DNA of 34,261 nt from a virus (IMGVR_UViG_3300030098_005711:794-35054), one strand, 5' to 3'. Positions 24,907-30,716 are shown, counted from the first letter of the stretch. Numbers and translations are program-made. Notes: generated by a model not told the origin, from the letters alone.

Positions 24907-25098
24907 TTATCTAGTTTGTTTTTTTGTAGATGGTGTATAGACTTCAGATCTGTCTATGAGCACATCTTGATCTGCTTCGAAAGTTAATCTAACTTGATTT
25001 CGATCTATTTTATTTACTGTTATTACTGCAACAGTTTTATTTTTGCTGTGGATAACAGCTGATTCTCCTAATTTTCGTGTTAGTACAAGACGAGACAT
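24907..25098 (-). CDS. csrA: CsrA-family translational regulator
   Basis: 63 aa, the usual length. It begins SRLVLTRKLGESAVI, matching the LxLTRrxGE start of CsrA, has the NQVRLTFEAD strand and ends VLIDRSEVY, where Arg50 matches the RNA-binding Arg44 of E. coli CsrA. CsrA dimers bind GGA motifs in RNA leaders and block or aid translation; a phage copy could steer host metabolism or phage genes. It lies five bases after the polymerase stop, with no clear ribosome site, so it is probably translated by coupling. A canonical L-T-R segment is offset by two residues from the bacterial form. Confidence 0.9.
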   Translation of the reverse strand: MSRLVLTRKLGESAVIHSKNKTVAVITVNKIDRNQVRLTFEADQDVLIDRSEVYTPSTKKQTR

Positions 25099-27668: not shown

Positions 27669-28811
27669 CTATTTCTCTTTGAATATATGTCCGATTTCTC
27701 CCCAAGGCACTGTACCCATTTCACTTGAAACCCATACTACAGGATATGGTGGCTCAGGACCAAAATCAGTACATTCCAGATCTGTTAAATATACCAATCC
27801 TTCTATGTCATTATTATAGTGTTCCTTTACATATTCAAATACAGGAGAAAAACTAGTACCTCCTCCACCATTCATTGTGAAATGTTCTTTTTCAAGTTCG
27901 TCTTCTTTATCGAGCGTAAAGACTTTATGAACGGCTGTATCACAATGGATAATAATTAATTTGTCAGGATTAATTGTTTCTTTTATAGCTCTGAATTCAC
28001 TCATAAATTGATCTACTACTGACATTGTTGATCCACTTGAATCCATAGCTAGTACAAAGTTACCTATTGTTTCATTGTACAAAGAAGGAAAGTATTCATC
28101 TTCTGAGATATAAGCTCTATTTGGTCTACGCCATGAAAACTCGTCTCGAGATAATTGAGTAGCAAATACCCAAAGAATATCTAACCAATTTACTACTGGT
28201 CTTAACATACCCTCTAAGAAGCGAGCCAAATCTGCTGGCAGTTTACCTGCTTGTTTTGCTATTTCTGCTGCTTGTGCTGTATTGATCTCCCAATCAGCTT
28301 CAAGTTGTCCGGCAGAAGGGGCGTCCGGATCTTTGTTAGTGGTTGAGTCCCATACTTCACCCCATGGTGCAGGTTCAGAATAAGGACCTAATTTACCTTC
28401 TTCTTTTTTCTCTAACAGTCTTGCGTAAATTTGTTCTGCATTTAAGCCAACAAATTCTTTGTTAAAATCAAAAACACCACCTTCCGGGAGAATAAACCCT
28501 GCTTCTTTTAGCATTTCATTTATAGGAATATCACAAGATATATTCCATAATAATGGGTCTCTTTCTCCCCTACGTGTTGTATGTTTTAACATCACATGAC
28601 TAACTTCGTGTGCTACTAGACCTTTGGTTTCTGACGGACTTAATTTGTTTATAAATTTTTCGTTATAAAACAAATGGCTGCCGTCAGTAGCTGCAGTGTC
28701 ACAGCGCTCATTATCCATACGGATGGCCAATTTGAGGGCTAACATCCCCCAAAATGGCTCAACCATAATAAGATCAGCGCGGGTTTTCACCAGGCGTTGA
28801 CTTGCTTCCAT
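27669..28811 (-). CDS. DUF2201-type metallopeptidase with VWA domain
   Basis: 380 aa. An N-terminal putative metallopeptidase domain shows HEVSH (68-72) and a nearby His77. The C-terminal VWA domain has a full MIDAS: DSSGS (257-261), Thr319 in GGGGTSF and Asp344 in LTDLE. This two-part layout is the DUF2201/VWA-like family, often found with a MoxR AAA+ ATPase, which is encoded two genes upstream. Such pairs remodel or activate proteins in bacteria. It starts with a strong AAGGAG. Its phage role is not known; it could act on host proteins or virion maturation. Confidence 0.88.
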   Translation of the reverse strand: MEASQRLVKTRADLIMVEPFWGMLALKLAIRMDNERCDTAATDGSHLFYNEKFINKLSPSETKGLVAHEVSHVMLKHTTRRGERDPLLWNISCDIPINEMLKEAGFILPEGGVFDFNKEFVGLNAEQIYARLLEKKEEGKLGPYSEPAPWGEVWDSTTNKDPDAPSAGQLEADWEINTAQAAEIAKQAGKLPADLARFLEGMLRPVVNWLDILWVFATQLSRDEFSWRRPNRAYISEDEYFPSLYNETIGNFVLAMDSSGSTMSVVDQFMSEFRAIKETINPDKLIIIHCDTAVHKVFTLDKEDELEKEHFTMNGGGGTSFSPVFEYVKEHYNNDIEGLVYLTDLECTDFGPEPPYPVVWVSSEMGTVPWGEIGHIFKEK

Positions 28812-28813
28812 GT

Positions 28814-29554
28814 TTATGCTCCTTTCTGTAACTTAGCTTTTAACGCTACGTTATTTACTAATTGAGTATCGAAAGAAATATCTTCTTGCAGTCTCTTAGC
28901 ACTTGTAGCTCTTGTTATTTTTTCATGCATACGCTGAATTATTTCGTGAGGCACTAATTGTTCAGCTGCAGGCCATACATCAAGCACTTTTTTTAAAGTA
29001 CTTGCTTTCCAGAGAAGCTCTTTTATCTGGCGCTCGTACTCTGTTCTTTTGTTTTGATAAGCTGTTAATCGCTCATAATGGTTTTGAAGAAGAGGTTGTA
29101 GCATATCTACTTCTTCTTGTTCCATATCTTGAAGATTACATGTTTGAGAATTATTATCGTAATAGCTACCTGTTTCACAAACATAAAATGGTCGTTTTAA
29201 AGGTAAGGTTATTGCTACTTTATGTGTAGTAGTCTTACCAGTTGTTGGACCATTTCCGTTTGTTTCTAATACTTCGCCTTGTAACCATATCTCGTCGTAC
29301 TCTTTAATGTTGATCATTCTGTACTTTGAGCTACTGTCTAAACCAAAAGAGTTTACTGTAGATAAACCACTAGAATGTGTTTTATCGTATACTTCTTTTA
29401 GGCTAAGTTGCATCTTTGAGTTACGAATTATACTTTCTATCGTAATAGTTGTTTCGTTATCAAAAACTGGGGTTTTGTTTGTAATTTCAAAATTGCTACG
29501 TGCTTCAGCATACATTTGTTCCCGTAATTGATTACTCATTCTTATTGAAGCCAT
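28814..29554 (-). CDS. Protein between MoxR ATPase and VWA protein, possibly Nmad5-like
   Basis: 246 aa. It starts with a helical segment (RMSNQLREQMYAEARSNFEI), has a beta-rich middle (YDEIWLQGEVLETNG, HKVAITLPLKRPFYVCETGS) and a long coiled C-terminal half (NHYERLTAYQNKRTEYERQI, LKKVLDVWPAAEQLVPHEII). The start and the LxxVWPAAExLVP element recall proteins annotated as nucleotide-modification-associated domain 5 (Nmad5), but this is recall and not tested. Location between the two parts of a MoxR-VWA pair makes it a candidate adaptor or substrate. Ribosome site GAGGA. Confidence 0.72.
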   Translation of the reverse strand: MASIRMSNQLREQMYAEARSNFEITNKTPVFDNETTITIESIIRNSKMQLSLKEVYDKTHSSGLSTVNSFGLDSSSKYRMINIKEYDEIWLQGEVLETNGNGPTTGKTTTHKVAITLPLKRPFYVCETGSYYDNNSQTCNLQDMEQEEVDMLQPLLQNHYERLTAYQNKRTEYERQIKELLWKASTLKKVLDVWPAAEQLVPHEIIQRMHEKITRATSAKRLQEDISFDTQLVNNVALKAKLQKGA

Positions 29555-29581
29555 TCTTTGGTCCTCGTTAGGTTGATTTAT

Positions 29582-30580
29582 TTATAACAACACATCTGCG
29601 TTGTCGTTGATCCACTGTTCAAACTCTGGAGTATCTGCAATATCAGAGTTACCGCCTACTGCGTCTTTCATAAGAAGCACTTGAAACTCTGCAGGCAAGC
29701 GCTTTGCGTACTTTGAGATTGCCCTAAAGTTATTTTTATCTGCACGTGAAGCTAAAGCTGCACTAACTGCATATAATAAGTTTTGCTTTTCTGGCACTCT
29801 TGAAGTTGAAGGATTTGCTATAATCATAGAAATATCAGGCAGTTCTTTATAAATCTGTCTGAAAGCTATGAATTCTCCGGCTGCTCCGTCACCTACAATA
29901 GATGCACAACCGTAGTATTCATCTGCCAAGAAAGGTAGTTTCTTATTAAGATACGACCATGCCCTGGGAGATGGGTTTGCTTGTTGCTCAGTACTGTAGT
30001 CATGCAAAGCTTCTGGTCTATATCGTAAGAAAGCGATAATAGAAGGATCTATTCCGATTTTTACGAAGTGAGCAGATGTGTCATCTATATTAGGCTCAAG
30101 ACAGAAGTGACCAAACCTTCTTTTTAGCGGGTCTGGCATGGCTTGTACTGCGGCACGATCTTTTGCTTGGTTACCACATGCAAATATAACCGTGTTTGCT
30201 GGAAGCTTATAAGCACCTATTCTTCTGTCTAATACTAGTTGAAGAAAAGCGTTCATAGTGGCTTTGGGGGAAGCATTAAGCTCTTCGAGATTTAATACGA
30301 TTGTTTCTTGACTGTTAGCATCAGGCCAATCTTCTGGAATACCATATCTGGTTTTGTATGTTCCATCTGCTTGACGTTCTACTTTTAGACCACCGCGTAC
30401 ATCTACAGGGTCATACAAGTTACAACGTATATCGTAATAAGTAGCATTAAGTTCCTCAGCTACTTGTTGGATGATTTCTGACTTACCAATACCAGAAGCA
30501 CCCCATACCATAGTAGGTATGTCAGCTTTTGCTTGGGATAATAACTCTTTCGTCAGAAGGGTTGGTCTTATTGTCCGCAT
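29582..30580 (-). CDS. MoxR-type AAA+ ATPase
   Basis: 332 aa. Walker A GASGIGKS (27-34), Walker B-type VLNLEEL (95-101, Glu99/Glu100), sensor 1 FACGNQ (Asn137) and the arginine-finger region DPLKRRF (150-156) are intact, followed by a helical C-terminal lid. MoxR ATPases are chaperone-like and work with VWA proteins, and a VWA metallopeptidase is two genes downstream. Start ATG with a strong AAGGAGG; the first 59 bases lie within the end of the small gene upstream, so the two may be coupled. Confidence 0.92.
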   Translation of the reverse strand: MRTIRPTLLTKELLSQAKADIPTMVWGASGIGKSEIIQQVAEELNATYYDIRCNLYDPVDVRGGLKVERQADGTYKTRYGIPEDWPDANSQETIVLNLEELNASPKATMNAFLQLVLDRRIGAYKLPANTVIFACGNQAKDRAAVQAMPDPLKRRFGHFCLEPNIDDTSAHFVKIGIDPSIIAFLRYRPEALHDYSTEQQANPSPRAWSYLNKKLPFLADEYYGCASIVGDGAAGEFIAFRQIYKELPDISMIIANPSTSRVPEKQNLLYAVSAALASRADKNNFRAISKYAKRLPAEFQVLLMKDAVGGNSDIADTPEFEQWINDNADVLL

Positions 30581-30716
30581 CTAAAGGTTCCTCCTTATGC
30601 GTTTTTTGGGGGTTTAGAAAAAGCTTTTTGAAAGCTTCTTCGTTGTGGTTAAGTATGTCTATACTTAAAAGCGTGTTACTTACTTCATTTTCTAGACTTT
30701 TTCTTTGTCGGCCCAT
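30522..30716 (-). CDS. Small hydrophilic hypothetical protein, 64 aa
   Basis: Starts at the ATG at 30716 with AGGAG six bases upstream, inside the end of the preceding gene. Mostly charged residues (MGRQRKSLENEVSNTLL, FKKLFLNPQKTHKEEPLDAD) with no motif. Its last 59 bases overlap the MoxR ATPase start, an unusually long overlap but with good ribosome sites for both, so I keep it. It may serve to couple translation of the ATPase or be its small partner; no direct evidence. Confidence 0.6.
   Translation of the reverse strand: MGRQRKSLENEVSNTLLSIDILNHNEEAFKKLFLNPQKTHKEEPLDADNKTNPSDERVIIPSKS

Follow-up and report, generated by a model that had tools for sequence, protein, structure and literature searches.

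We describe a phage gene trio, encoding a MoxR-type AAA+ ATPase, a protein of the Nmad5/PHROG_1965 family and a DUF2201 metallopeptidase-VWA protein, whose products may act as a single ATP-driven protein remodeler with a dedicated target-facing third subunit within the phage replication block (probability about 0.5). The ATPase-VWA pair is already known from phages; the third component is the addition here. Gene content and order, active sites, shared presence and absence, linkage to PolA, CsrA and primase, the pattern of variability and a nested Shine-Dalgarno (SD) site are shown directly. The analyzed stretch of 34,261 nucleotides, hereafter the window, represents bases 794-35054 of a 35,054-base linear IMG/VR record from an uncultivated phage, and this record is probably incomplete. 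The relevant features are:

27669..28811, minus strand: DUF2201 metallopeptidase-VWA protein, 380 aa (PF13203, PF09967; conservation of active site and MIDAS)
28814..29554, minus strand: middle protein, 246 aa, Nmad5/PHROG_1965 family (Pfam Nmad5, PHROG_1965, AF2 model, conservation)
28814..28873, minus strand: conserved tail of the middle protein, codons 228-246 plus stop (tail scores; nested SD)
29582..30580, minus strand: MoxR-type AAA+ ATPase, 332 aa (Pfam AAA_5, PHROG_1297)
30522..30716, minus strand: 64-aa ORF overlapping the ATPase start by 59 nt (86% identical in L090)

The three genes were found where a first-pass annotation of the sequence had placed them; the structural genes of the window occupy the other strand. 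The three are tightly spaced (27 nt from the ATPase to the middle gene, 2 nt from there to the VWA gene) and each is preceded by an SD-like motif, AAGGAG for the ATPase and VWA genes and GAGGA for the middle gene, in agreement with the strong ribosome sites claimed there. The SD site of the VWA gene is contained in the final codons of the middle gene (AAAGGAGCA), and this nesting recurs in most loci of the trio set. Downstream follow genes for a 113-aa protein, a 131-aa protein, a family A DNA polymerase (PolA) and a CsrA-like protein, then for a DUF5906 primase, a PD-(D/E)XK nuclease and a SNF2-type helicase; the complete MoxR-VWA set is indeed located among replication genes. The 64-aa ORF, proposed as a possible fourth member, has a counterpart in the closest relative, but none was found at other, more distant trio loci, and it can be regarded as an unproven candidate at most. 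As a separate observation, the CsrA-like gene (24907-25098), which lies between polymerase and primase, is kept through nearly the whole clade.

The ATPase matches Pfam AAA_5 (24.2 bits against a cut-off of 22) and PHROG_1297 (E 3e-78), and the solved sequences closest to its profile in a PDB search include midasin, NorQ, CobS and CbbQ. Its motifs had been described as intact, which applies to Walker A (GASGIGKS), sensor 1 (N137), the arginine finger (R155) and sensor 2 (R206), but not to Walker B, which reads LNLEE rather than the canonical hhhhDE. Across the 133 ATPases compared, the Walker A lysine, the sensor-1 asparagine, the second finger arginine and the sensor-2 arginine are invariant, while glutamate replaces the first Walker B aspartate in just two, those of the window phage and its closest relative (L090). 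The catalytic glutamate is kept despite this exchange. Because the substitution is conservative, we still file the protein as MoxR-type, albeit not as fully canonical; it could weaken ATP hydrolysis in the window phage.

The VWA protein is matched by DUF2201_N (PF13203; E 3e-49, 168 bits against a cut-off of 23) and DUF2201 (PF09967; E 9e-21, 75 bits against 26). Its N-terminal zincin-like metallopeptidase domain carries the HExxH motif as HEVSH (H68, E69, H72), together with a histidine at +5 (H77) and D94, and its C-terminal VWA domain possesses a complete MIDAS (D257/S259/S261/T319/D344). The combination of both sites, already recognized in the initial reading, is conserved: among 131 relatives, no more than one lacks any given residue of HExxH, the +5 histidine, an Asp and an Asn further downstream, or the MIDAS set D-S-S-T-D, as would be expected of an active metal site and a functional MIDAS. 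The label 'HNH endonuclease' is attached to DUF2201 VWA homologs in PHROG_1314 and in many RefSeq phage records. We rejected this assignment for the window protein, as no HNH family is found among its Pfam matches up to E 1, and the label therefore looks like a propagated error.

The middle protein, at first listed as unrecognized, is matched above cut-off by Nmad5 in its C-terminal part (PF18757; E 1.2e-6, 29.2 bits against 27) and by PHROG_1965 (E 1.2e-8); in the trio relative L091, the Nmad5 match reaches 36.7 bits and covers nearly the whole length. It comprises a conserved N-terminus, a hypervariable β region (residues 57-145), a long helix, a conserved TLKxxLxVWPAAExLVP segment and, in addition to what defines Nmad5 and PHROG_1965, a conserved C-terminal tail. 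An AF2 model built from 35 sequences (pLDDT 82.7, pTM 0.76) predicts N-terminal helices, a central β region, a 38-residue helix, several short helices and, beyond a low-confidence linker, a C-terminal helix. In structure searches with this model, the best PDB match had an E-value of 0.09 in Foldseek and Z-scores did not exceed 4.0 in VIA-align, and the best named match in BFVD was an Nmad5 protein; no informative solved relative was found for either Nmad5 or the DUF3150-like proteins discussed below. Compared with the protein of the close relative, residues 57-145 are 24% identical and residues 211-246 are 89% identical, with 88% identity for each of ATPase and PolA, and within the clade, middle proteins fall to ~20% identity with that of the window. 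A hypervariable center between conserved ends is consistent with the earlier suggestion that this protein defines the target, which would make it an adaptor, but it could also stem from relaxed constraint or recombination. The near-invariant residues among its relatives are mainly A, R, T, K, W, P, E, N and L, plus one histidine, and include no Cys/His/Asp cluster that would point to a metal or catalytic site.

The tail has the form SFDxxxxNxxxLxAKL (NNVALKAKLQ in the window), and a motif N-x-[VAT]-[VIL]-L-T-x-x-[LMI] is common to the slot-1 and slot-3 Nmad5 proteins of the clade. Tail scores are 15.5-30.4 for slot-1 proteins and 14.4-24.7 for slot-3 proteins of the CsrA clade and L132; sister-clade slot-3 proteins bear a weak resemblance to the motif, and it is absent from three unlinked Nmad5 homologs (ICP2 gp36, the MY01 protein and L103). 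Two further interpretations of this region were discarded. As a substrate tag, it would be expected on other phage proteins, but the best of 12,883 other ORF ends scored only 12.0. Likewise, the C-terminal GG of many relatives is not a ubiquitin-like signature, because its codons (GGAGGC) provide the GGAGG Shine-Dalgarno site of the VWA gene, which starts 1 nt past the stop; the window protein itself ends in GA, and no GG end was seen in relatives whose VWA gene starts farther away.

The gene order is retained in related phages. A close relative (L002/L090) keeps it with 88/55/74% identity between the three proteins, and an Nmad5-like gene lies between ATPase and VWA gene in 49 IMG/VR loci, a few of which are near-identical. 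Since this relative and about 50 contigs share this order, the arrangement is far beyond chance. Part of the linkage nevertheless reflects shared ancestry, as the 49 loci belong to one phage clade in which the trio always lies beside PolA, CsrA, primase and nuclease in a largely syntenic replication block; our counts thus describe related sequences from one clade rather than independent events. In a tree of 93 ATPases, all 40 that accompany a slot-1 Nmad5 fall into a single group (SH-aLRT 99; one change), so the trio has one visible origin and is co-inherited with PolA, CsrA and primase. The order is therefore conserved within one ATPase clade, but it is not general among phages. When IMG/VR was scanned with middle proteins only, contigs with both flanks showed ATPase-middle-VWA, except for a four-gene variant with the order DUF3150-ATPase-VWA and Nmad5 further down (L132) and a single contig (L103/L138) whose orphan Nmad5 gene has no pair in its vicinity and whose record lacks an AAA_5 match. 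A single-sequence scan of IMG/VR with the middle protein returned no relative, the first 24 kb of the window, compared directly with phages at the DNA level, had no match, and a genome-contig scan revealed no bacterial home of the trio.

A survey anchored on PolA, and hence independent of the trio, gave a similar picture: of the 13 CsrA-clade contigs that extend 6 kb or more upstream, nine have the complete trio, four have none of it and none has a part. We also searched 50 whole records (22 from the CsrA clade, 28 from the sister clade) with four profiles. In the CsrA clade, ATPase, VWA and Nmad5 co-occur in 12 of the 22 records, one has an Nmad5 piece at its cut end, and nine have no trio gene, several of the latter being truncated beside the polymerase. 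Of the 28 sister-clade records, 19 have the VWA gene; 18 of these have DUF3150 and 17 the ATPase, with the missing genes falling at contig ends; five VWA-bearing records add an Nmad5-like gene after the VWA gene. Altogether, the 31 VWA-bearing records divide into 12 with Nmad5, 18 with DUF3150 and one that is cut, and ATPase and VWA occur together except in contigs cut beside the module. As all of these environmental records are fragmentary, an absence carries little weight in these surveys.

Several loci (L011, L151, L153, L155, L161, L170, L159) carry two Nmad5-like genes, usually flanking the VWA gene on either side; in L159 both precede it, and L153 is cut before the VWA gene. Two trio-lacking members of the same clade (L150:4217-6608 and L167:3991-6327) instead have a ThiF/E1-like gene upstream of PolA, together with two further genes there, one containing a JAMM-like motif (HSHVxMxxSPSxQD) and the other, for 300 aa, an E2-like motif (HPHMTxxTxCLGDFG), the JAMM and E2 assignments having been made by eye. 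No homologs of this cassette were found in trio-bearing loci.

ATPase and VWA gene are far more widespread than the trio, with tblastn matches in 798 and 692 INPHARED records, respectively. The first-pass annotation had named phages with only some of these genes as evidence against a joint function. Such phages exist insofar as the pair occurs without a recognized middle protein in about 60 loci, N4-like phages included, which implies that it works without the third gene elsewhere. ATPase or VWA gene alone, by contrast, were not found in any clean locus; single-gene loci are cut at, or a few kb from, contig ends. Conversely, Nmad5 proteins occur in many phages outside the clade, lambdoid ones included. 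The idea that Nmad5 accompanies every phage MoxR-VWA pair was rejected, as PHROG_1965 is absent from 45 IMG/VR records fetched by ATPase; it is also absent from phages G, phiFa, S-TIM5 and SABI. The third subunit is thus lineage-specific, as phages exist with the pair only and others with Nmad5 but no MoxR. Among individual loci, Vibrio phage ICP2_2013_A_Haiti (L008:4701-9046) has an Nmad5 gene ~0.9 kb upstream of CobT-like and CobS-like genes, which represent a second, distant MoxR-VWA type, and Thermus phage phiFa (L004:6272-6769) and a related contig (L029:8962-9492) have an RNase H-like gene between ATPase and VWA gene.

The trio resembles NorQ-NorD, CobS-CobT, RavA-ViaA and midasin in combining a MoxR-class ATPase with a VWA partner. 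The relationship is distant, and the DUF2201 profile found no match to the VWA partners of these systems in the PDB. We know of no Nmad5 subunit in any of them. NorQD offers a precedent, its hexamer being plugged by the VWA domain, which extends a finger through the pore, and a NorD linker being remodeled by the motor (PMC9976466, PMC13036017). The ternary MoxR-vWA-VMAP/β-propeller systems (Kaur et al., 2020, PMC7159879) follow the same three-gene logic with a variable third protein, but the window trio is unlike them, its bpMoxR match staying at 22.8 bits against a cut-off of 27 and no VMAP or β-propeller component being found by Pfam in the three proteins. Closer counterparts are genes 24 and 25 of phage N4 (Schitoviridae), which encode the same ATPase and DUF2201 families in the same order and are core genes of N4-like phages (PMC4193335; PMC2784036). 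In another member of the Schitoviridae, Klebsiella phage KpCHEMY26, the pair is about 30% identical to that of the window and directly adjacent, with no middle protein in between; Nmad5 is found elsewhere in KpCHEMY26 and in MY01. Lastly, a MoxR and metallopeptidase-vWA chaperone/metallopeptidase pair of group 2.2 jumbo phages has the window architecture, with the metallopeptidase fused N-terminally to vWA, and, as far as the available portion of that account goes, it is described as a pair with no third component mentioned (Iyer et al., 2021, PMC7824862).

By homology with NorQD, CobST and RavA-ViaA, we expect the ATPase to form a hexameric ring, on which the DUF2201 protein would dock through its VWA domain, thereby bringing in the metallopeptidase domain. 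The ends of the middle protein (the N-terminus, the WPAAE segment and the C-terminal tail) would contact the ATPase or the VWA protein, and its hypervariable β region would face a target that evolves rapidly, most probably a protein of host or phage origin that is encountered in the replication phase. The middle protein may thus choose the target. Complex formation, the adaptor role, peptidase activity and the target are what we infer here.

The same components could instead serve virion assembly, with the pair remodeling and the metallopeptidase clipping a structural protein and the middle protein as an assembly factor. Virion assembly with processing has been proposed for the jumbo-phage pair, with an archaeal virus as precedent (PMC7824862). 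In roseophage RPP1, gp24/25 homologs lie near a second structural module (PMC4193335), and in S-TIM5 the pair adjoins Hsp20 near structural genes. We nonetheless consider this explanation unlikely for the trio: its constant neighbors are PolA, CsrA, primase and nuclease, with the structural genes of the window on the other strand; it is missing from the DNA available for four close relatives, which would be odd for an assembly chaperone; and N4 gp24/25 transcripts are middle, not late (PMC4193335). Because of its place in the replication block and its absence from some relatives, we favor a target in replication or takeover.

Cellular MoxR-VWA operons often have a client gene adjacent, as with NorQD, which matures NOR. 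Accordingly, the middle protein might be a client or effector enzyme, perhaps nucleotide-modifying, that is matured by MoxR-VWA through metal or cofactor insertion. This would fit the annotation of Nmad5 as nucleotide-modification associated, which here is a family name only, and the observation that an nmad5 mutation in Dhillonvirus alters sensing by Tmn (PMC11846954). It too seems improbable to us: the lack of a near-invariant Cys/His/Asp cluster disfavors a metal-loaded client or an enzyme, the Nmad5 family extends to phages far removed from the clade, and no base-hypermodification gene was found among the window proteins scanned, in what is an incomplete record.

A counter-defense protease that unfolds and cleaves a host protein, with an arms race acting on the middle protein, would account for the hypervariable center, the throughout conserved zincin site and the absence of the trio as a unit from some relatives, two of which have the ThiF/E1-JAMM-type cassette instead, but we judge it quite improbable, given that gp24/25 are core rather than accessory genes in N4-like phages, that the trio absences number only four and come from incomplete records, and that no convincing PADLOC family was found (no match better than E 0.004), which also leaves the earlier 'conflict system' label without direct support.

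The ATP-driven remodeler with a target-facing third subunit may have a counterpart in other mobile elements. In other phages, Synechococcus phage MinM2 likewise, a DUF3150-like gene for 280-350 aa lies between or beside ATPase and VWA gene, and an unannotated homolog (E about 1e-73) adjoins the VWA gene on Robbsia and Paraburkholderia (Burkholderiales) plasmids, in Robbsia between MoxR and VWA. Matches to Pfam DUF3150 (PF11348) are mostly below cut-off, with L014 above it, and DUF3150 positions change several times on the ATPase tree; in the literature searched, DUF3150 is not mentioned by name. Homology between Nmad5 and DUF3150 was rejected (hhalign probability 0.3%; differing structural neighbors). 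DUF3150-like proteins take or flank the same slot in sister phages and plasmids, and we tentatively suggest, with rather more doubt than conviction, a general three-subunit MoxR machine of mobile elements, in which unrelated Nmad5- and DUF3150-type proteins are exchangeable target adaptors.

If so, this Nmad5 branch would be a protein-remodeling adaptor with a central domain under arms-race diversification, and both it and DUF3150 would acquire a role at the protein level. A fast-diverging third subunit would also provide a handle on what the core MoxR/vWFA pair of N4-like phages acts on: the variable domain of the middle protein could serve as bait, with the conserved tail as a candidate docking motif. 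On Robbsia andropogonis plasmid p3 (L221:987-13940), we further observed a full PRTRC cassette (ParB, E, C, F, B, A, ThiF) ~4 kb upstream of the MoxR-DUF3150-like-VWA trio.
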